The notes under the pieces were generated by a model that was given only the letters and a program-made list of their open reading frames with translations, made no database searches and had not been told where the DNA came from. This document shows positions 7,206 through 55,004 of a stretch of DNA of 61,373 nucleotides, piece after piece. The stretch lies in contig JAPPFM010000024.1 of the NCBI GenBank assembly GCA_028821605.1, forward strand, positions 1 to 61,373, read 5' to 3'. The stretch comes from Candidatus Poribacteria bacterium (lineage in GTDB: Bacteria > Poribacteria > WGA-4E > WGA-3G). Both the position numbers and the translations under genes were made by a program. Within the stretch, counting starts at the first letter, position 1; the number at the start of each line of letters is the position of its first letter.

Positions 7206-7745
7206 GTGGCTTTTAAAGCTTCTCGAAAACTTAAAGAATGGTTTGCGGAGCGGTGTGGTGAGTTGCTCGTCGAGCTTTTCACGAGAAATATCTCTGAGGT
7301 ATATGACGAGGTATCGAAAGAGCATCCGGATGTGCCACGAAAGGAATTTTATTCGGCATTCCGCACAGCGAATCCGAACAGTTGCCAGTACGCCCCAAAG
7401 ACATATCACTGTCTTTATGAGCGGGGTGCTGAGAAAAATAATCTTGAGATCACAAATAATAACAGAACGCTTGGCTATCTCGAAATTGACCGCCAAATCA
7501 GGCTGCAGGGGGTTCGGAAAGCGATTGCAGATGCGATTATTGAGGGTCCAATTTCTGTGATAGATTCGTTGGGTAGAATCTCAACGATTGACCCGAAACT
7601 GCTCGATGTTTTTGATAAAGACCATGAACTACGCGAAACTCGTAACCAAGGCAGACCTTCAGACAGCGATGACGGAAGCCGAGTCGAAGAGCTTGACAAC
7701 GCTTTTGAAAGAGCTGAAGAAGAAGCGCGAGATGACCCAGAATAA
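7206..7745 (+). CDS. Candidate small terminase subunit (positional)
   Basis: A 179-residue charged protein beginning with GTG three bases after the previous stop; a purine-rich GGTGGTCGG lies just upstream. The N-terminal third (FKASRKLKEWFAERCGELLV) could form helices, and the C-terminus is strongly acidic (AFERAEEEARDDPE). Its 3' end overlaps the likely start of the large terminase, the usual place for a small subunit. No clear HTH motif was identified, so the assignment depends on position and size. Confidence 0.4.
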   Translation: MAFKASRKLKEWFAERCGELLVELFTRNISEVYDEVSKEHPDVPRKEFYSAFRTANPNSCQYAPKTYHCLYERGAEKNNLEITNNNRTLGYLEIDRQIRLQGVRKAIADAIIEGPISVIDSLGRISTIDPKLLDVFDKDHELRETRNQGRPSDSDDGSRVEELDNAFERAEEEARDDPE

Positions 7746-9435
7746 AGATCTACGCGTCCGTATGACCCTCGCGCTTGCATTTGCCCATGTAGGTGTGTTC
7801 GCTAAATACTTTCTGCCTGAATACGTCTCGGCACCGTTCGGAAAGCACCACGATCCGCTCTTCCGCGCTATCGGACGCGGCGAGACCGGCAAGCAAATGA
7901 ATATCCTTGCACCACGTGGGAGCGCAAAAAGCACGTGTATGGCAGTCATCTATCCGCTCCATTGTATTTTCTTTAAATGGGCTTACGAGAAGCTCGGTAT
8001 GAAGCCACATAATTTCATCGTTATCGTCTCGAAATCACACACAATGGCGAAATCGCGGGTACAAGACATCAAGCGGAAAATAGACAGAGATGTAAGGTTC
8101 AAAGAAGTAGTAGGCGATGCGACATGGGGCGAGCAACGTCTCATCACCGATAATCAAATTATGATTGTTCCAAACTCACGCGGTGGACAGATTCGGGGTT
8201 CGTTGTTCGGTGCGGAGCGTCCTGATCTCATTATTTCTGACGACCTCGATGACCCGGAGACGGTTCGGAACCCAGCTGTGCGGGAGAAGGATCAGCTGTG
8301 GTTCGATTCGGATTTTATTCGGGCGGGTCGACCTGACGGTAAGACGAATTTTATCAATATCGATACGGTGAAGCATGCGGAAAGCACGGCGAATCTGCTG
8401 CGTCAACGTTCTGGCTGGGATACGAAGTTTTTTCAGGCGATCGAATATCCCGCGGACCTGTGGCATCCGACAGCAGAGCGGCTTTGGCAAGAGTGGGAGA
8501 AGTTGTACACGGATATGGATGTCGAGGAAACTGAACGGCACACACAGGCACAGGCGTTCTATGCGGAAAATGAAGGGGCGATGATGGCAGATGTTGAGGA
8601 ATTGTGGCCGGAGGTTATCACGTATCTCGCTGTTCGTAAGGAGGTTTGTGATGTTGGATACTACCCTGTGCTTCGCGAACTCCAGAACAGCACTCATGAC
8701 CCTTCACAGGCACTTTTCGATATGGCGAGTGCTATGCGGTTCGAGAAGACGAAAGAGGGCTTTCTGCGGGCGGATAAACGCCTTATTCGGTGGGAGGAGA
8801 TGGCAGGGGCGACGGTTTTTCTGGATTGGGCAGGCGGTAAGGATATTGCGGATAACGCGTTTGCGGCGGTGGTCTCTGTTATTTGGGTGCCGCTGCCGGG
8901 GAGTCGGCAGGATAAGACAGATTCGTTGATGGACGGTGTGCATGGGTATGTATTCTCGGCGGAGTTGAAGCGGGCGGGTGCTACTGAGCAGATAGCGATG
9001 TGTTTCGATGCGATCCAGCAGATTCGGCGTGAGATCCCGAAACCGGATCTTCGGTTACGGTTAGGCGTTGAGGGGTTTGTACAGGATACCTGGCAGGCTC
9101 AGAAACAGGTGATTGAGCGGGATTATCGCGCACAACGCGAGGCTCGGAACGTTCGAGATTACCCGGTGCTGGAGTTCCTGACGCGGCAGCGCAACAAATT
9201 TGATCGGATTGACGCACTCCAACCGATTATTCGGAATGGGTGGCTCTCGTTCGCGAAGGGGTTGCCGGGTGAATTTATGAAGCAGATGTCGCTTTATCCG
9301 ACAGGCGATTTTGTTGATGGTCCTGATGCACTTGAGGGGGCGTGTGAGTTACGGGTTTCGCGGTTTGAATCGGAGCGTCGGGAACGCCGTGAACGGGTTG
9401 CACAACGGAATAGGAATTTTAAGGTGAGGGTTTGA
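7624..9435 (+). CDS. terL: Phage terminase large subunit (ATPase/nuclease)
   Basis: TerL is the motor that translocates DNA into the prohead and cuts concatemers. From the ATG at 7624 (603 residues), a Walker A-like APRGSAKST lies at 96 to 104 and a Walker B-like DLIISDDLDD at 201 to 210. A nuclease-type acidic motif follows (FLDWAGGKD, Asp401), and near the C-terminus GDFVDGPDALEGA resembles the late Asp motif of TerL nucleases. The start is uncertain. The frame is open from TTG at 7588, and ATG at 7732 has a GAAGAAG stretch upstream and would leave only a 14-base overlap with the upstream gene. With 7624 the overlap is 122 bases. Confidence 0.85.
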   Translation: MNYAKLVTKADLQTAMTEAESKSLTTLLKELKKKREMTQNKDLRVRMTLALAFAHVGVFAKYFLPEYVSAPFGKHHDPLFRAIGRGETGKQMNILAPRGSAKSTCMAVIYPLHCIFFKWAYEKLGMKPHNFIVIVSKSHTMAKSRVQDIKRKIDRDVRFKEVVGDATWGEQRLITDNQIMIVPNSRGGQIRGSLFGAERPDLIISDDLDDPETVRNPAVREKDQLWFDSDFIRAGRPDGKTNFINIDTVKHAESTANLLRQRSGWDTKFFQAIEYPADLWHPTAERLWQEWEKLYTDMDVEETERHTQAQAFYAENEGAMMADVEELWPEVITYLAVRKEVCDVGYYPVLRELQNSTHDPSQALFDMASAMRFEKTKEGFLRADKRLIRWEEMAGATVFLDWAGGKDIADNAFAAVVSVIWVPLPGSRQDKTDSLMDGVHGYVFSAELKRAGATEQIAMCFDAIQQIRREIPKPDLRLRLGVEGFVQDTWQAQKQVIERDYRAQREARNVRDYPVLEFLTRQRNKFDRIDALQPIIRNGWLSFAKGLPGEFMKQMSLYPTGDFVDGPDALEGACELRVSRFESERRERRERVAQRNRNFKVRV

Positions 9436-9900: not shown

Positions 9901-10365
9901 CTATTTATCCGGTTCCACGTCTTCAGGTTTTGAGGAATTTGCAGGCGATTCGTTATTCAACTTAGAAAGCTCTTGACGTAATTTCTCATTCGATCGTCTG
10001 AGTTCTTCATTCGATTGCCTAAGTTTCTCTAACTCGTCTTTTTCTGCTTTGAACTGTTTTCTTTCTTCTCTGAGTTTTGCACGTTCTTCGCGAGCGCGTC
10101 GTAAAAACATAAGACTGATTCCTTCTTCAAAAAGTGTTAGCAAAGTTGCGGCTGACAGGATACTTGAGACATTGACTGCAACAGTATAAAGAAAACTCAC
10201 AATGTTATTACGCTTGAGAACAATTTCATACAAGAAAATTCCAACAATAACCGCGATTGCGAAGATTGTGAACGTCATCATCGCGATTTCGGCATCCCGA
10301 ACGGTGAACACTGAGGAGCGGTTATCTTTGTCGTTCAAAACTATCTGTTGGCTATCACATATCAC
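9901..10365 (-). CDS. Membrane/coiled-coil protein, candidate phage moron
   Basis: It reads against all its phage neighbours. The GTG start at 10365 is chosen because AGGGGAT stands seven bases upstream and because the longer frame would run back through its own promoter. The 154-residue product has one hydrophobic segment around residues 30 to 47 (MMTFTIFAIAVIVGIFLYEI) and a second around 58 to 82. A cytosolic heptad-rich tail follows (LEKLRQSNEELRRSNEKLRQ), then an acidic end. A private strong promoter and reversed orientation inside a late operon are typical of prophage genes expressed in the lysogen, for example superinfection-exclusion genes. That role is inferred; no family was recognised. 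Confidence 0.65.
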   Translation of the reverse strand: MICDSQQIVLNDKDNRSSVFTVRDAEIAMMTFTIFAIAVIVGIFLYEIVLKRNNIVSFLYTVAVNVSSILSAATLLTLFEEGISLMFLRRAREERAKLREERKQFKAEKDELEKLRQSNEELRRSNEKLRQELSKLNNESPANSSKPEDVEPDK

Positions 10366-10376
10366 GCTTTTATCCC

Positions 10377-10440
10377 CTATCGAGTGGGAGGCAGACACGT
10401 CACCGAGGGGTGACGCTCGATATGTCTGCCAACGTGATAG
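10377..10440 (-). promoter_or_regulatory. Nested inverted repeats in the 5' leader of the moron
   Basis: Three concentric complementary pairs occur: CTATC (10377) with GATAG (10440), GGCAGACA (10390) with TGTCTGCC (10430), and GTCACC (10399) with GGTGAC (10414). The ribosome-binding sequence lies at the edge of the outer stem. It could be an operator, a structured leader or a REP-type insertion. Confidence 0.55.
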
Positions 10441-10444
10441 GTAT

Positions 10445-10473
10445 AGTATAGCATCTTTGACCCGGTGTGTCAA
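10445..10473 (-). promoter_or_regulatory. Near-consensus sigma-70 promoter for the moron
   Basis: On the - strand TTGACA (10473 to 10468) and TATACT (10450 to 10445) are separated by exactly 17 bases. Transcription would start near 10438, about 73 bases before the GTG. Confidence 0.8.
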
Positions 10474-10604: not shown

Positions 10605-10826
10605 ATGCCGTATTTTATCAAAAAGCCTATACCTATTGAAGCTGTGCAACAGACAGGACCTTTCAAAACGCAAACGTTAGAAGGGGAATTGGAAGGTAAA
10701 GCTGGAGACTATCTCGTGACGGGTGTCAATGGTGAACAATATCCTGTCGATCGCGAGATTTTTGAAAAAACTTATTACGAAGTAACAAAAGACGTATATG
10801 ACGACTATTACAACAAAAGGGAATAG
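10605..10826 (+). CDS. Small phage protein, PGDYG-like
   Basis: A 73-residue protein starting MPYFIKKPIPIEAVQQTG and continuing through TLEGELEGKAGDYLVTGVNG and YPVDREIFEKTYYEV. This order (KKP-x-I-EA-x-Q, then GD-x-L-x-x-G-x-x-G-E, then Y-P-x-x-x-x-I-F-x-x-T-Y) matches small phage proteins of unknown function with a PGDYG-type fold. AAGGTGAAGG precedes the ATG. It lies just before the portal gene. The biochemical role of this family is not known to me. Confidence 0.65.
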   Translation: MPYFIKKPIPIEAVQQTGPFKTQTLEGELEGKAGDYLVTGVNGEQYPVDREIFEKTYYEVTKDVYDDYYNKRE

Positions 10827-10931: not shown

Positions 10932-12539
10932 ATGGCATCACTTTTACAACTCAGAGATGAGGCGTTTCAAGAATCTGAACATGCGCATAACCGGCTCCGG
11001 CATGAGCTGGCGGTCTTCCGAAACGAGGGTTATGAGGAAGGGACTCGGGTAGGTGCGTCCTACGCCCTTGTTGAGGAGTCGCTGATGCCACAGATCCAGA
11101 TCGGGTGTCTGCGTCTCGTGCCGGCGTTCCGGGAGCAGATTGCGAGGATAAATGTTGAGCCGGATGGCAATGACCCGACTGTTCAGGAAGTGCTTTTTTC
11201 TGAGGGTATTGCGAACTGGAATAAGATGTATGAGGAGGTCGATGACGAGGGCGGACGGATGCGGTCTAATATCTATTGGAACCTCGTCTGCGGGAACGCG
11301 TTGTCGAAGATTCGGTGGGACCCTGTGAAGAAACTGGTCCGCGCGGAGTCTATCAATCCGACGAGCTTCGCGCCGGATCCGGCATGCACGCAGTCGAACT
11401 TCTCTGATGCTGGTTATGTCGTCCACAGGAACTTTCATAATCGGGCGTATATGAGGAAGCATTACCCGGATTGGTCGCCGCCTGCGCTGGCGTGGAGCGA
11501 GTCTTCGCGTGCGTCGTCGCGGCGACCGGATTCTCGGCACTGTGTTGATGAGATCTGGATGCACCGCGATGTGGCGGAGGATTGCGGCATACGTGTGAGC
11601 GACACGAAGCGTGAAGTTATCCTCGTGAAGTTGATTGATGATACTCTCTACAAGGCTCAGGGTAGCCCTTATTGGTTTCCGGGTTTTCCGTTCGCGCATT
11701 GGCGGAACTTCGTTGATTTGCTGGATGAGGGGAAACCGCATGGGTTCTGGGGCTACGGCTACGGGACGCTGGCGTGGCCGCAACAGAAGATGCTCGATGA
11801 GTTTATCTCGAACTTCATTCTGATTTTGCGGAACTTGGGTATCGGTCGGTTTATCGCGAAGGATGGGGCGATTGATGAGGATCAGATCTCGCCACTTCAA
11901 GGTGCGATTCTACGGATGAATGAGGGGTTCGATATCGGTGATCTTCAGCATCTGCCGCCGGAGATTGTGCCGCCGGTGTTGATTGAATTCATCCAGTTTA
12001 TTTCGGGGATCATGACGGATATGATGCCGTCGCTCTCAAGCATCTTTTCGGGTGAACCGCCCTACGCTGGCGCGTCGGGGCGTGCAGTTGAGTCTCTTCG
12101 GTTTGCGAATTTCAATCAACTCTCAGACAATATCCGGGAGATGAATGAGTTCCGGTTGCGGCGGATGCGGATTAAGGTTGCGGTGCTGCAGCAGTTCGCA
12201 CGTCGTCCGTTGAGACCGCATCTCTGGCGCGGGGGTCTCGATATGCAAGATCCGTTCCCTGAAGAGGCACGGCATGTCGGTTACCGGTTGAGTATGCCGG
12301 ATTTGACGGCGTTGCCGAATACGCCTGCTGGGAAACTTCAAATGCTACAGGTGCTTGGGTCGCTCGGTCTGCAGCCGAAGGATCCGCTGGATATTCTTGG
12401 GTTGACGAAGGGGTATGGGTGGACTTCGGAGGATTTTACGATGGTGCCGCACGGGTTGGGTAACCCAACCCCTACAAACGGACAGGTTGATGAAGAGGTT
12501 TTGTCTGGGCAGGAGATGGCGATGCGGGCGGAGCGATAG
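10932..12539 (+). CDS. Phage portal protein
   Basis: A 535-residue protein; the portal is the dodecameric ring at the capsid vertex through which DNA enters and leaves. The N-terminal half has a portal-like layout: an early helical region, then SNIYWNLVCGNALSKIRWDP and ESINPTSFAPDPACTQSNF, followed by YVVHRNFHNRAYMRKHYPDW. Podovirus-type portals describe a wing and a conserved Pro-Asp step in this way. The middle carries KPHGFWGYGYGTLAWPQQKM, typical of the stem region. The C-terminal part includes a REP-derived peptide, HGLGNPTPT. GAAGGTAA lies 12 bases upstream of the ATG. Confidence 0.75.
   Translation: MASLLQLRDEAFQESEHAHNRLRHELAVFRNEGYEEGTRVGASYALVEESLMPQIQIGCLRLVPAFREQIARINVEPDGNDPTVQEVLFSEGIANWNKMYEEVDDEGGRMRSNIYWNLVCGNALSKIRWDPVKKLVRAESINPTSFAPDPACTQSNFSDAGYVVHRNFHNRAYMRKHYPDWSPPALAWSESSRASSRRPDSRHCVDEIWMHRDVAEDCGIRVSDTKREVILVKLIDDTLYKAQGSPYWFPGFPFAHWRNFVDLLDEGKPHGFWGYGYGTLAWPQQKMLDEFISNFILILRNLGIGRFIAKDGAIDEDQISPLQGAILRMNEGFDIGDLQHLPPEIVPPVLIEFIQFISGIMTDMMPSLSSIFSGEPPYAGASGRAVESLRFANFNQLSDNIREMNEFRLRRMRIKVAVLQQFARRPLRPHLWRGGLDMQDPFPEEARHVGYRLSMPDLTALPNTPAGKLQMLQVLGSLGLQPKDPLDILGLTKGYGWTSEDFTMVPHGLGNPTPTNGQVDEEVLSGQEMAMRAER
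12453..12475 (-). repeat. REP-like palindrome in frame in the portal gene
   Basis: GGGTTGGG/CCCAACCC stem with a taa loop and CCTAC end, translated as GLGNPTPT close to the portal C-terminus. Confidence 0.7.
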
Positions 12540-49169: not shown

Positions 49170-50213
49170 ATGTACAAAACTGCGATGTTAGGGTGTGGCG
49201 GGCGCGCTCGCGGGCACGCAGATGCGTATCGCTTCGTCAAACGCGGCAAACTCGCCGCCATCTGCGATATGGACGAAGAACGCCTCAACACCTTCGGGGA
49301 TAACTTCGGTATATCTTCGCGTTACACCGACTTAGACGAGATGCTTGAAAAAGAGAAACCGGATGTGCTTCACATCGTCACAAGCCCTGTGATTCCGAGT
49401 AGTGAGGAACGTCTCCGGTATCCGTTGATGAAACAGGCATCCGACCACGGTGTCCCAGCGGCGATTATCGAAAAGCCGGTCGCCATTGAAGGCGAGGATT
49501 GGAAACAGATTGCGGGGTTAGCGGAAGAGACAAAAACGAAATTTGTTGTCAATACACAACTCAATTTCCACCCGAAAAACTTGGCGTTAAAAAGAGATGT
49601 CACCGAAGGACGGATCGGCGAAATTCGGTTTATTGATGCCAGTGCGCGTAGTAGAGCCGCCGAGCAGGGCGGACATGTGCTACAATTGGTGTCCTCCTAC
49701 ATTGATGACGCACATCCGGTAAGGGTTCTTGGACAAATCGCTGGCAGCGAGCATTTAAATTCTGCGGGTGGGCATCCCGGTCCGACACATGCTGCCGCTC
49801 AGGTTTTGTATGAGAACGGTGTCCATGTCTCTATTGCGTTTGGTACGGAGATGGCACAAATGGCATCCGATGACCCGGGTATCTACGGGCACAAACGTGT
49901 GCTTGTTGTCGGGACGAAGGGCTTTGTACATTGGCGTTTCAGCAGTTGGGAACGTTCAACATTGGACGGTGGCTATGAGAGCGGTCCACTGAACTACGGG
50001 GAGCAAGATGTTGTTGCACAGGCTAATTTCACCGAAGCCATCTTTGATTGGTTAGAGGATGAGAATAGTGCGCATCCGACGCATCTCAAGCAATCCCTCG
50101 TTGAGAATAACCTCATCTTAGGGATGTACCACAGCGGGATCACAAACGAGATTATCGAACTCCCATTTGAACCCCCCGATGGGTTAATGGACGCGCTTCG
50201 AGAGAAGTTGTAA
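49170..50213 (+). CDS. Gfo/Idh/MocA oxidoreductase, tandem copy 1
   Basis: A 347-residue protein. MYKTAMLGCGGRARGHADAY holds the nucleotide-binding GxGG, AAICDMDEERL the following acidic step, and PAAIIEKPVAIEGEDWKQIA the E-K-P catalytic signature. VVNTQLNFHPKNLALK and THLKQSLVENNLILGMYHSG follow. TAGGAGCCGG precedes the ATG. It is the most diverged of the five (RGH in the loop, Ala-rich LNSAGGHPGPT segment). Confidence 0.85.
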   Translation: MYKTAMLGCGGRARGHADAYRFVKRGKLAAICDMDEERLNTFGDNFGISSRYTDLDEMLEKEKPDVLHIVTSPVIPSSEERLRYPLMKQASDHGVPAAIIEKPVAIEGEDWKQIAGLAEETKTKFVVNTQLNFHPKNLALKRDVTEGRIGEIRFIDASARSRAAEQGGHVLQLVSSYIDDAHPVRVLGQIAGSEHLNSAGGHPGPTHAAAQVLYENGVHVSIAFGTEMAQMASDDPGIYGHKRVLVVGTKGFVHWRFSSWERSTLDGGYESGPLNYGEQDVVAQANFTEAIFDWLEDENSAHPTHLKQSLVENNLILGMYHSGITNEIIELPFEPPDGLMDALREKL

Positions 50214-50314
50214 TTTAAAATGAATCTATATTGTAGGTAGTGGCTTTAGTCTTTGCCCGCTACGTTTGGTGCGCTGCTGGCGTGCTATTGTTAACATTGA
50301 GAGGAAACGATTTA

Positions 50315-51352
50315 ATGTATAAAACTGCGATATTAGGATGTAGGGGTCGCGCCCGTGCACATGCAAATGCTTACCAATTCGTCAAACGCGGTAAACTCGC
50401 GGCAATCTGCGATATGAACGAAGAACGACTCAGCGAATTCGGAGACGAATTCGATATCTCTTCACGCTACACCGATTTAGACGCGATGCTTGAGAAAGAG
50501 AAGCCGGATGTTCTCCATATCGTCACCGCCCCCGTGTTGCGGGGGACAAGTGAACGCATCCGCTATCCGCTGATGAAACAGGCATCCGATCACGGGGTGC
50601 CAGCAGTGATCATTGAAAAACCGATTGCCGTTGAAAGTGAAGATTGGAAGCAAATTGCCGGGTTGGCAGAGGAGACGAAAACGAAGTTTGCCATTAATAC
50701 ACAACTCAACTTCCACCCGAAAAATCTGGAATTAAAACAGGATGTTGCGGAAGGACGGATCGGCGAGATTAAGTTCATCGATGCCAGCGCGCGTAGCACG
50801 CCGGTTGACCAGGGGCCGCATGTGCTGCAATTAGTGTCCTCCTATATTGACAACGCACGTCCGGTTCGGGTGCTTGGACAAATCGCTGGCAGCGAGGGTT
50901 TGGATTCAGATCAACCGTCTCCGATGCATGCCGCTGGACAGGTTTTGTATGAGAACGGTCTTCACGTCTCTGTGGCGTTCGGGACAGGTATGGGGACAAC
51001 GGCATCCGATAACCCGGGTATCTACGGACACAAACGGGTCTTTGTCGTGGGAACAAAAGGCTTCGTGCATTGGCGTTTCAGTAGTTGGGAGCGTGCAACA
51101 CCAGAAGGAGGCTATGAAGGCGGTCCACTCAACTACGGCGAGCAAAATAGCGTTGCGCAGGCGAACCTCACTGAAGCTGTTTTTGATTGGTTAGATGATG
51201 AGAACAACGTGCATCCGACACATCTCAAGCAATCGCTCGCAGAGTTCAACCTGCTTTTAGGACTGTACTATAGTGGCATAACGAACCAGATTATTGACCT
51301 CCCATTTGAACCGCCTGATGGGTTAATGGATTCGCTCCGAGAAAAGTTGTAA
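50315..51352 (+). CDS. Gfo/Idh/MocA oxidoreductase, tandem copy 2, altered GxG
   Basis: The ATG at 50315 aligns with the other copies and follows GAGAGGAAACG; the longer frame from 50240 adds 25 unrelated residues. The 345-residue product has ILGCRGRARAHANAYQF, so the second Gly of the dinucleotide loop is Arg. IIEKPIAVESEDWKQIAGLA and the rest are conserved. NAD(P) binding may be weakened. It is 102 bases after copy 1. Confidence 0.8.
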   Translation: MYKTAILGCRGRARAHANAYQFVKRGKLAAICDMNEERLSEFGDEFDISSRYTDLDAMLEKEKPDVLHIVTAPVLRGTSERIRYPLMKQASDHGVPAVIIEKPIAVESEDWKQIAGLAEETKTKFAINTQLNFHPKNLELKQDVAEGRIGEIKFIDASARSTPVDQGPHVLQLVSSYIDNARPVRVLGQIAGSEGLDSDQPSPMHAAGQVLYENGLHVSVAFGTGMGTTASDNPGIYGHKRVFVVGTKGFVHWRFSSWERATPEGGYEGGPLNYGEQNSVAQANLTEAVFDWLDDENNVHPTHLKQSLAEFNLLLGLYYSGITNQIIDLPFEPPDGLMDSLREKL

Positions 51353-51502
51353 ACCGATTAACGATACACCCATAGAAAGCGGCGGAACAAATCCTGAAGA
51401 AACACCCAAGCAAACCCCTACAATGGGGAAGTTGTTGTTTTCTTAAAGTGTTATTTTATTTTTCGGTTTTACTATAATCAAAGTATTAAAGGAGACATTT
51501 TC

Positions 51503-52546
51503 ATGTACAAAACTGCGTTCTTAGGGTGTGGCGGTCGTGCCCGTGCGCACGCGGATGCTTACCGCTTCGTCAAACGCGGCAAAATCGGTGCAATCTGCGA
51601 TATGAATGAAGAACTACTCAACAGCTTCGGAGACGACTTTGAGATTTCATCACGATATACTGACCTTGATGAGATGCTTGAAAAAGAGAAACCGGATGTG
51701 CTTCACATTGTCACGGCACCGGTGTTACGCGGCACCAACCAACGGATTCGGTATTCGCTGATGAAACAGGCATCCGATGCAGGTGTGCCAGCGGCAATTG
51801 TGGAAAAGCCGATTGCCGTTGAAAGCGAGGACTGGAAACAACTTGCCGGATTAGCGGAAGAGACAGAAACGAAGTTTGTTGTTAACACACAACTCAATTT
51901 CCACCCGAAGAACCTGGAATTGAAGCGGGATGTCGCAGAAGGCAGAATCGGCGACATCAAGTTTATTGATGCCAGCGCACGGAGTACGCCGGTAGACCAG
52001 GCACCCCATGTGCTGCAACTTGTCTCTTCCTACATCGACAACTCACGTCCAGTGCGGGTGCTCGGACAGGTTTCTGGCGGCCAGGATTTGGATTCCACGC
52101 AGCCTTCCCCGATGCATGCTGCCGCTCAGGCTTTATATGCAAACGGTCTTCACGTCTCTCTTGCCTTTGGGACAGGTTTAGGACAGAAAGTGCCTAAAGA
52201 ACCGGATGCGGGTAACCACACGCACAAACGGGTCTTTGTCGTCGGAACGAAAGGGTTCGTGCACTGGCGGTTTAGCAGTTGGGAGCGTGCAACGCCAGAG
52301 GGGGGTTACGAAAGCGGGCCACTTGACTACGGCGAGCAGGATGTCATCGCACAAGGTAACCTCACCGAAGCCGTTTTCGATTGGCTTGACGATGAGAGCA
52401 ATGTGCATCCGACACATCTCAAGCAATCTCTTGCGGAGTTCAACCTACTTTTAGGGATCTACTACAGCGGCGTAACAAATGAGATTATAGATCTACCGTT
52501 TGAACCGCCTGATGGGTTGATTGATATCCTCCGAGAGAAGTTATAA
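51503..52546 (+). CDS. Gfo/Idh/MocA oxidoreductase, tandem copy 3
   Basis: A 347-residue protein with FLGCGGRARAHADAYRFVKR and AAIVEKPIAVESEDWKQLAG. It has a two-residue-longer loop (QKVPKEPDAGNHTHKRVFVV). AAAGGAGACATTTTC precedes the ATG, and an upstream TATAAT (51473 to 51478) could be a local promoter element. The leader is similar to that of copies 4 and 5. Confidence 0.85.
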   Translation: MYKTAFLGCGGRARAHADAYRFVKRGKIGAICDMNEELLNSFGDDFEISSRYTDLDEMLEKEKPDVLHIVTAPVLRGTNQRIRYSLMKQASDAGVPAAIVEKPIAVESEDWKQLAGLAEETETKFVVNTQLNFHPKNLELKRDVAEGRIGDIKFIDASARSTPVDQAPHVLQLVSSYIDNSRPVRVLGQVSGGQDLDSTQPSPMHAAAQALYANGLHVSLAFGTGLGQKVPKEPDAGNHTHKRVFVVGTKGFVHWRFSSWERATPEGGYESGPLDYGEQDVIAQGNLTEAVFDWLDDESNVHPTHLKQSLAEFNLLLGIYYSGVTNEIIDLPFEPPDGLIDILREKL

Positions 52547-52625
52547 AAAGTTAGTCTATGTTTTCCCTGTTAACATCTAACCCATTTCGGCTTGATACTC
52601 GAAATCGTATTGAAGGAGACATTTT

Positions 52626-53663
52626 ATGTATAAAACTGCGTTCTTAGGGTGTGGGGGGCGCGCCCGTGCGCACGCGAGTGCCTACCGTTTTGTCAAACGC
52701 GGCAAAATCGCTGCAATCTGCGATATGAACGAGGAGTTACTCAATAAATTTGGAGACGACTTCGACGTTTCCTCACGCTACACCGACCTTGATGAGATGC
52801 TTGAGAAGGAAAAACCGGATGTGCTTCACATCGTCACTGCGCCGGTGCTGCGGGGGACTAACCAACGGATTCGGTATTCGCTGATGAAACAGGCATCCGA
52901 TCACGGCGTGCCAGCGGCGATCGTCGAAAAACCGATTGCCGTTGAGAGCGAGGATTGGAAACAGATTGCGGGGTTAGCGGAAGAGACGAAAACAAAGTTT
53001 GTCGTCAATACGCAACTTAACTTTCATCCCCAAAACTTGGAATTGAAGCGGGATGTCGCAGAAGGTAGAATCGGTGAGATTAAGTTCATTGATGCCAGTG
53101 CACGCAGCACGCCGGTGGATCAGGCACCGCATGTGCTGCAGTTAGTATCGTCCTACATTGACAACTCGCGTCCGGTCCGTGTGTTGGGTCAAATCTCGGG
53201 GAGAGAGCAGTTGGATTCCGCGCAGCCGTCTCCGATGCATGCCGCTGGACAAGCCATATATGAGAACGGTCTTCACGTCTCTCTTGCGTTTGGTACCGGC
53301 ATGGGGACGTTGGCATCGGACAGTGAGAGTACTGTTGCGCATAAACGTGTCTTTGTTGTGGGAACAAAGGGCTTTGTCCATTGGCGTTTCAGTAGTTGGG
53401 AACGCGCAACGCCTGAAGGTGGCTACGAAGGCGGTCCGCTGAACTATGGCGAACAAGACATAGCTGCACAGGGCAACCTCACGGAGGCTGTCTTTGACTG
53501 GCTCGACGATGAGAACAACGTGCATCCGACACATCTCAAGCAATCCCTCGCGGAGTTCAACCTCCTCTTAGGGCTTTACTACAGCGGGATCACAAACGAA
53601 ATTATTGACCTCCCGTTTGAACCGCCTGATGGTTTGATGGATTCACTCCGAGAAAAGTTGTAA
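52626..53663 (+). CDS. Gfo/Idh/MocA oxidoreductase, tandem copy 4
   Basis: A 345-residue protein nearly the same as copy 3 over the N-terminal 190 residues (FLGCGGRARAHASAYRFVKR, VLRGTNQRIRYSLMKQASD). It ends SGITNEIIDLPFEPPDGLMD followed by SLREKL, as copy 2 does. GAAGGAGACATTTT precedes the ATG, the same ribosome-binding context as copies 3 and 5. Confidence 0.85.
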   Translation: MYKTAFLGCGGRARAHASAYRFVKRGKIAAICDMNEELLNKFGDDFDVSSRYTDLDEMLEKEKPDVLHIVTAPVLRGTNQRIRYSLMKQASDHGVPAAIVEKPIAVESEDWKQIAGLAEETKTKFVVNTQLNFHPQNLELKRDVAEGRIGEIKFIDASARSTPVDQAPHVLQLVSSYIDNSRPVRVLGQISGREQLDSAQPSPMHAAGQAIYENGLHVSLAFGTGMGTLASDSESTVAHKRVFVVGTKGFVHWRFSSWERATPEGGYEGGPLNYGEQDIAAQGNLTEAVFDWLDDENNVHPTHLKQSLAEFNLLLGLYYSGITNEIIDLPFEPPDGLMDSLREKL

Positions 53664-53718
53664 ACCGACAAATGTAGCGGCAGGCGAGATATTCGCTTGC
53701 CGTGAACTACGCCCAAAA

Positions 53719-53748
53719 TTGACACGCCTCCCAAACGTGTGCTATAAT
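53719..53748 (+). promoter_or_regulatory. Consensus sigma-70 promoter inside the oxidoreductase array
   Basis: TTGACA (53719 to 53724), 18-base spacer, TATAAT (53743 to 53748). Both boxes are perfect consensus. It would drive the small ORF at 53788 and copy 5. Confidence 0.75.
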
Positions 53749-53787
53749 TTACAAAAAGAGATGCACTAAAACCGAGAAAGGAATGAG

Positions 53788-53988
53788 ATGGCAAGTTTTG
53801 ATACTGCCTCCCTACGGGGCTGCGAATCGGTGCATCCACGTCTGTTTTTCTGCGAGTTGCGTTTGTCTAAGGAACTTAGAGAAAAAATCAGAGAGGCGTT
53901 GAAAATCCGGCATGAACCTAACCACAATTGTTCAAACTATAGTAAAATATTAAAGGAGACATTTTTGTGTATAAAACCGCAATGTTAG
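53788..53988 (+). CDS. Small ORF ahead of copy 5, unrecognised
   Basis: A 66-codon frame (MASFDTASLRGCESVHPRLF at its start, then a basic helix-like ELRLSKELREKIREALKI) with AAAGGAATGAG upstream and a consensus promoter 40 bases before it. Its last 22 bases overlap the start of copy 5. It may be a leader or a gene remnant; the last residues read the ribosome-binding region of copy 5. Confidence 0.3.
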   Translation: MASFDTASLRGCESVHPRLFFCELRLSKELREKIREALKIRHEPNHNCSNYSKILKETFLCIKPQC

Positions 53989-55004
53989 GGTGTGGGGGCC
54001 GCGCCCGCGCACATGCAGATGCCTACCGCTTCGTTAAAGGTGGTAAACTCGCAGCAGTCTGCGATATGAATGAAGAACTACTCAACAAATTCGGAGACGA
54101 TTTCGGTATCTCCTCGCGTTACACTGATTTAGACGAGATGCTTGAAAAGGAGAAACCCGATGTGCTTCACATCGTCACCGCACCGGTGCTACGAGGTAGT
54201 AACGAGCGTATTCGTTACCCGCTGATGAAACAGGCATCCGATGCAGGTGTGCCAGCAGCAATTGTGGAAAAGCCGATTGCTGTTGAAAGTGAAGACTGGA
54301 AGCAGATCGCAGGGTTGGCAGAAGAGACACAAACGAAGTTCGTCGTCAATACACAACTCAATTTCCACCCCCAAAACTTGGAATTGAAAGCAGATGTCGC
54401 GGCGGGCCGTATCGGCGAGATTAAGTTCATTGATGCCAGTGCACGCAGCACACCGGTTGACCAAGGTCCGCACGTGCTGCAGTTGGTGTCCTCTTATATT
54501 GATAACTCGCGTCCGGTCCGTGTCCTCGGGCAAATCTCTGGCGGTGATCACTTGGATTCAGCCCAACCCTCCCCCCAATATGCCAGCGCACGCGTGCAGT
54601 ACGAAAACGGGCTCCACGTCTCCGTGGCATTCGGGACAGCCATCGCGCCGACTGCGTCCGATGACCCGGTCGTCTTTTTCCACAAACGTGTCTTTGTCGT
54701 AGGGACGACAGGTTTCGTGCATTGGCGTTTCAGCAGTTGGGAACGCTCAACCCATGAAGGCGGTTATGAAGGCGGTCCGCTGAACTATGGTGAGCAGGAT
54801 GTCATTGCACAAGGCAACCTCACCGAGGCAGTCTTTGATTGGCTCGACGACGAGCGTAAAGTTCACCCGACGCATCTCAAACAATCGCTCGCGGAGTTCA
54901 ACTTGCTCTTGGGAATTTACTATAGCGGCATCACCAATGAAGTGATTGAACTCCCGTTTGATCCACCTGATGGATTGATGGATCAACTGAGAGACAGATT
55001 GTAA
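53967..55004 (+). CDS. Gfo/Idh/MocA oxidoreductase, tandem copy 5
   Basis: A 345-residue protein starting at GTG after AAAGGAGACATTTTT. MLGCGGRARAHADAYRFVKG and AAIVEKPIAVESEDWKQIAG are conserved. The middle differs (IAPTASDDPVVFFHKRVFVV). A TATAGTAAAAT stretch just upstream resembles the TATAAT region ahead of copy 3. Four bases separate its stop from the PhyH-type gene, so those two are likely co-transcribed. Confidence 0.85.
   Translation: MYKTAMLGCGGRARAHADAYRFVKGGKLAAVCDMNEELLNKFGDDFGISSRYTDLDEMLEKEKPDVLHIVTAPVLRGSNERIRYPLMKQASDAGVPAAIVEKPIAVESEDWKQIAGLAEETQTKFVVNTQLNFHPQNLELKADVAAGRIGEIKFIDASARSTPVDQGPHVLQLVSSYIDNSRPVRVLGQISGGDHLDSAQPSPQYASARVQYENGLHVSVAFGTAIAPTASDDPVVFFHKRVFVVGTTGFVHWRFSSWERSTHEGGYEGGPLNYGEQDVIAQGNLTEAVFDWLDDERKVHPTHLKQSLAEFNLLLGIYYSGITNEVIELPFDPPDGLMDQLRDRL

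Follow-up and report, generated by a model that had tools for sequence, protein, structure and literature searches.

A candidate pseudoknotted RNA leader of Candidatus Poribacteria on TnpB genes, restriction–modification operons and a moron-like prophage gene

Poribacteria are bacteria living in sponges. In a prophage carried by one of them, a single gene runs against its neighbours, behind a consensus promoter and a set of inverted repeats, which raises the question of what this gene is and what the repeats ahead of it do. We analysed the locus within the window, by which we mean the whole stretch of 61,373 nt examined here, an entire contig from a 6-Mb metagenome-assembled genome. The first-pass annotation had described the gene as a reversed moron between the terminase and portal genes. 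The coordinates of all features are collected in Table 1.

Table 1. Features of the reversed gene, its promoter and its RNA leader in the window
Feature	Position	Strand	Remarks
Terminase large subunit (context)	7588..9435	+	PHROG 38, E 6e-53
Reversed CDS	9901..10365	-	GTG 10365 start (154 aa) or TTG 10338 (145 aa); predicted two-TM coiled-coil membrane protein
Tandem a'1 (CGUGAUA) and a'2 (UGUGAUA)	10353..10366	-	GTG start within a'1
Structured RNA leader (pseudoknotted 5' UTR element)	10353..10440	-	R1 match 10349-10440, 107 bits
Shine–Dalgarno AGGGGAU	10372..10378	-	GGGG in helix e
Helix e, 5' strand CCC	10386..10388	-	Pairs with SD; 96.2% of cells paired; five copies with a compensatory CUC/GAG change
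Hairpin d, CGUCACC CCUC GGUGACG	10398..10415	-	6/7 pairs compensatory
Helix c, 5' strand UAUCGAG, pseudoknot	10416..10422	-	Partner 10378-10384; 6/7 pairs compensatory, 98.9% of cells paired
Helix b, 5' strand GGCAGACA	10423..10430	-	Partner 10390-10397
Helix a, 5' strand UAUCACG	10433..10439	-	Pairs with a'1 or a'2; 6/7 pairs compensatory for either partner
-10 box TATACT, TG upstream	10445..10450	-	11 of 12 consensus positions together with the -35 box
-35 box TTGACA	10468..10473	-	Consensus match
Portal protein (context)	10932..12539	+	P22-like portal / PHROG 156, E 3e-13

The lone gene running the opposite way is real, both flanking genes being on the forward strand; a small PGDYG-family protein (PF14083) is encoded at 10605–10826, between it and the portal gene. 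The gene end at 10473 was discarded, because this position is only the first TTG of the open frame, a mechanical ORF start that falls inside the −35 box. Translation is taken to begin at the GTG, 8 nt past the GGGG of the Shine–Dalgarno (SD) sequence, or at the TTG, which is conserved in sister loci. The prediction of a short membrane protein with a coiled coil was borne out by two hydrophobic segments in the 154 aa product (approximately residues 27–50 and 54–80, Kyte–Doolittle) and by a highly charged C-terminal part, with 61% charged residues. Relatives of the product were found in most genomes of the genus, with up to six copies each, and only doubtful ones outside it; as judged from these matches, the family is one of multi-copy, nearly genus-restricted, two-TM coiled-coil proteins. 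Pfam yielded sub-threshold matches only, mostly in the coiled coil, and no family that gives a function. A truncated copy of the gene elsewhere in the same genome (C40) matches it at the DNA level with 94% identity across 189 bp, indicating that the gene was probably moved or copied recently. The possibility that it is cargo of an IS element was set aside, as no IS end was recognized around it.

The prophage was compared with a sister phage region (G017:C2) of the same gene order, whose terminase and portal proteins are 79 and 83% identical to those of the window. The reversed gene is missing from the terminase–portal gap of the sister phage, which consists of 1.3 kb of unrelated repeat-rich DNA. 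This absence argues that the reversed gene is an accessory, moron-like gene of its phage lineage, as seen against one informative sister phage, and the reading as a moron agrees with its reversed orientation and with a promoter of its own, recognized by sequence. Farther along the window, the segment 39281–56775 has a second copy on another contig (L308, G000:C32:46000-65999), with 86–98% protein identity for most genes and 62% for one. That segment copy has a terminase large-subunit gene 56–59% identical to that of the window and no portal gene nearby. Within the window segment, positions 49170–55004 hold a tandem array of similar genes of approximately 345 aa (MYKTA..LGCGGRARAHA...), which, by eye, we take to be probably Gfo/Idh-type oxidoreductases.

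Upstream of the gene, the annotated promoter TTGACA-17-TATACT is present, with 11 of the 12 consensus positions and a 17-nt spacer, a better match than any other site in the region; so strong a consensus promoter suggests expression in the lysogen. The AGGGGAT site was also confirmed (10378–10372). Downstream of the promoter, a leader of three nested inverted repeats had been described. Repeats do exist there (10440–10353), in the form of four repeats, a tandem second a' and a short helix over the SD. The nesting is not a simple one: the arms follow one another as a b c d d' b' c' a', in which arm c crosses arm b, forming a pseudoknot.

Folded alone, the leader had a minimum free energy of −42.9, compared with a mean of −27.7 for shuffled sequences (z = −4.05), and none of 200 shuffles was as stable. 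We then turned to an alignment of 88 distinct leader copies (A1), which are related, so that cell counts in it do not represent independent events. The proposed pairs were standard pairs in 97.8% of the cells, and compensatory changes were detected in 20 of the 29 pairs. The covariation score was 0.440 against 0.151 in shuffles, none of 500 shuffles reaching any of the measures, and control structures slid along the alignment paired in only 25–45% of cells. The second copy, a'2, covaried with helix a as much as a'1 did, suggesting that both pairings may be used. These results indicate a conserved fold in the 5' UTR with covariation support, as would be expected of a structured leader of the IS200 tnpA type.

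Matches to at least 10 of the 12 promoter positions were present in 101 of 115 leader copies, as against 0.5% of shuffles; the spacer was 17 nt in 89 copies; and the −10 box ended 4 nt upstream of the leader in 98 of 111 copies. By these counts, the promoter is locked to the leader element. Because of this constant distance between the −10 box and alignment column 1, standard promoter geometry would place the transcription start at column 3. The pairing of helix a with a'1 reached 98–100% from column 4 onwards and only approximately 86% at columns 2–3. At five loci (L045, L046, L050, L052 and L055), a stretch just upstream of the promoter (YUUUCCACA...) was common to different leader-driven genes, suggesting that promoter and leader are exchanged as one piece.

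A DNA search detected the leader without the gene at no fewer than eight further places in the genome of the window, and in 37 of the 38 genomes of the genus. With a covariance model, it was found in all 38 genomes of the genus and in 48 of the 85 of the phylum, with 24 matches in the genome of the window and at most 48 in any one genome. When the leader core was compared with 84,980 species genomes, all 80 matches listed were from Candidatus Poribacteria, in a sequence-based scan that cannot see divergent leaders of the second type (see below) in other phyla. A cmscan of five loci against Rfam (E ≤ 1) gave nothing above the gathering threshold, the sole weak match being a human lncRNA exon. 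The leader is thus a candidate new RNA family of approximately 92 nt, so far found only in Poribacteria.

Most leader copies stand approximately 92–94 nt before TnpB genes, including approximately 18 copies before TnpB genes or remnants in the genome of the window. TnpB proteins are widespread and regarded as ancestors of Cas12. The leader-carrying TnpBs possess OrfB_IS605 and Cas12f1-like_TNB domains and form four clusters at 40% single linkage; unlike most carriers, the gene of the window is itself not an IS200/IS605 gene. In the sister phage, a separate TnpB gene with the leader is inserted at approximately 175,600 of G017:C2 (L305), shortly after the next gene downstream of the portal gene, and there is no TnpB at the matching place in the window. 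A descriptor of the architecture, which recovers 83 of the 88 known leaders and none of 50 shuffles, detected it in none of 12 foreign TnpBs, a small sample from other organisms or viral contigs at 31–40% identity, and the idea of a general TnpB feature was abandoned on this result. One IMG/VR contig carries a TnpB with the leader (L320). In addition, three TnpBs scored as leaderless by the model (L312, L313 and L314, on G000 C59, C2 and C32) carry a second type of leader with the same arm order and another sequence, for example UUACAUGGUG-GCGGUGG-...-CACCAUGUAA-AGGA. In all three, the c helix differs in sequence and still pairs, and the SD lies just 3' of a', outside the fold. The ribosome-binding site is within the fold in type 1, the type of the window, where helix e covers the GGGG, and not in type 2.

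Carriers other than TnpB were also examined. Most members of the protein family of the window gene are without the leader, which is confined to one clade of the membrane-gene tree that includes the window gene (11 rows, support 91/88; degenerate leaders L020 and L022 scored by eye). In this clade, the leader is absent only from L016 and the 5'-truncated L002. L016 (G024:C160) keeps the same promoter and would produce a nearly leaderless mRNA; since promoter is retained and leader is not, the leader is a separable module. Other membrane-gene loci start to resemble the window close to the −10 box. At two loci in other genomes, the leader and a membrane gene precede modification or restriction genes: an N6/N4 methyltransferase that also carries an HNH domain (L184), and an MvaI/BcnI-type endonuclease with its methyltransferase (L186). 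At L192 and on C6 of the genome of the window, the gene immediately behind the leader encodes a DNA methyltransferase. Signal-peptide coiled-coil proteins with the leader were found at L188, L189, L201 and L202, the last of these being a leader-driven reversed operon of the membrane/coiled-coil type beside the tape-measure gene of a second Poribacteria prophage. The leader-driven protein of L188 gave a sub-threshold match to SieB only (E 0.0012). A neighbour of L191, considered as a defence helicase, proved to be GlnE.

Taken together, we consider it probable that the leader, a Poribacteria-specific RNA with TnpB genes as its main users, is a cis-acting translational brake. Transcription would start at the 5' end of the leader from the strong sigma-70-type promoter, and the RNA would fold into hairpin d on stem b, the pseudoknot c and the short helix e, which pairs with the SD. 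The closing helix a would be formed by the 5' terminus and either of the two tandem a' copies at the initiation region. Such a fold would probably hide the SD and an NTG, resulting in low translation, and a signal or an antisense partner would open it. A brake on translation is the simplest working interpretation because both the SD (helix e) and the NTG (helix a) are paired in the model. In the nested model, the mean unpaired probability was 0.12 for the SD and 0.19 for the NTG, compared with 0.27 and 0.34 after shuffling of the upstream part, so that the accessibility of the real sequence is only approximately twofold lower. The spacing from SD to NTG was 7–8 nt in 98 of 108 copies. In 58 of 108 copies, a uORF from the a'1 NTG would share the sequence ATGA between its stop and the start codon; a strictly conserved uORF is not essential, as the NTG is lost in approximately 10 of 88 copies that keep the covarying helix a. 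Hiding of the SD cannot be the whole function, because the type-2 SD lies outside helix e, and what the two types have in common may be the layout of the message's 5' end, not a hidden SD. More tentatively, the leader could represent a phylum-specific class of RNA switch, in which a common pseudoknot, able to choose between two partners, would follow one shared signal of the host and control a loose regulon of TnpB nucleases, restriction–modification operons and prophage membrane genes.

The brake is compatible with a reading that puts the weight on the protein, namely, that it is a superinfection-exclusion or abortive-infection gene whose level the leader only tunes. The membrane anchor with its coiled coil, the reversed position in a prophage behind its own promoter, and the sister copies that stand first before restriction–modification genes in several genomes (L183, L184 and L186) make this a serious possibility, if still the less probable one, since PADLOC returned nothing for the protein, no relative was detected in the phage and viral collections, and the family is spread over the genus with most members leaderless. 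A role of the protein in protecting the lysogen from other phages or from mobile DNA is a guess.

A ligand-sensing riboswitch or a binding site for a host protein, switching mobile and defence genes together, would also account for a compact pseudoknot over the SD, for a 5' strand a with the alternative partners a'1 and a'2, and for a leader common to unrelated genes (TnpB, methyltransferase and MvaI/BcnI endonuclease operons, membrane coiled-coil genes). We regard it as rather unlikely: no association with a metabolic gene hints at a ligand, the helix sequences vary freely with few conserved unpaired bases, unlike a binding pocket, and, within the range tested, the leader occurs in a single phylum.

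The palindromes had been proposed as repressor-binding DNA, and more broadly the repeats might act as DNA, either as repressor operators or as hairpins of an IS end recognized by a transposase. Most copies are indeed contained in IS605-type elements, with another hairpin close by on the upstream side, and the inverted and tandem a/a' arms resemble operator half-sites. The alignment pointed the other way, with 99 G–U cells against 23 A–C cells, as expected if the transcribed strand is the one that folds. Together with the covariation of the fold, the locked promoter and a pairing that begins near the predicted start, this G–U excess indicates that selection probably acts on the RNA rather than on the DNA. 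The crossing of the pseudoknot, the overlap of the element with the SD and its presence on genes without a recognized IS end, such as that of the window, leave the DNA reading very improbable, and a transcribed, heavily covarying RNA fold that is common to transposon genes takes the place of the proposed operators. A self-cleaving ribozyme of HDV-like topology (b as P1, c as P2 and d as P3), to which the order b c d d' b' c' would correspond as P1 P2 P3 P3' P1' P2', was rejected as the least credible of all, since the five loci gave no Rfam ribozyme match at E ≤ 1, HDV has a P4 ahead of P2' at the place where, in the leader, c' is enclosed by helix e, the 7 pairs of helix d carry a variable tetraloop, and the expected joining segment showed no evident conserved catalytic C in the 88 aligned copies.

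To our knowledge, little has been established on how cells keep TnpB nucleases in check. Here, one folded RNA leader was found on several diverged TnpB lineages across one phylum, and before prophage genes and restriction–modification operons. Covariation of this strength allows structure-restoring mutants to be designed immediately, so that E. coli reporters can be used to test how an uncultivated sponge symbiont controls TnpB and its prophage accessory genes.

Among known systems, phage morons and exclusion proteins such as SieA and SieB of P22 share with the window gene the layout of a reversed prophage accessory gene with its own promoter, and the nature of a small membrane protein; the likeness is one of layout and membrane nature only, with no sequence relationship shown. 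HDV-like ribozymes share with the leader the order of three helices, the leader being without an Rfam match, a P4 or a visible catalytic motif. In Salmonella, the IS200 tnpA transcript starts with a stable stem–loop in its 5' UTR, by which the ribosome-binding site is concealed and translation reduced (PMC12594629). In most of its copies, the leader likewise starts the message of an IS200/IS605-superfamily gene, and its type-1 fold is predicted to lie over the ribosome-binding site. In the transposase mRNA of ISPpu9 from Pseudomonas putida, a 5' UTR fold likely covers the ribosome-binding site, mutations that weaken it raise translation, and an antisense sRNA, Asr9, is proposed to unfold it (PMC8450116). 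The predicted fold over the ribosome-binding site is again the common feature, ISPpu9 being an unrelated IS, with no pseudoknot mentioned in the abstract of that study. The Poribacteria leader differs from the stem–loop of IS200, which is on tnpA, in being pseudoknotted and in having two alternative 3' partners; its carriers are tnpB genes from several lineages as well as non-transposon genes.
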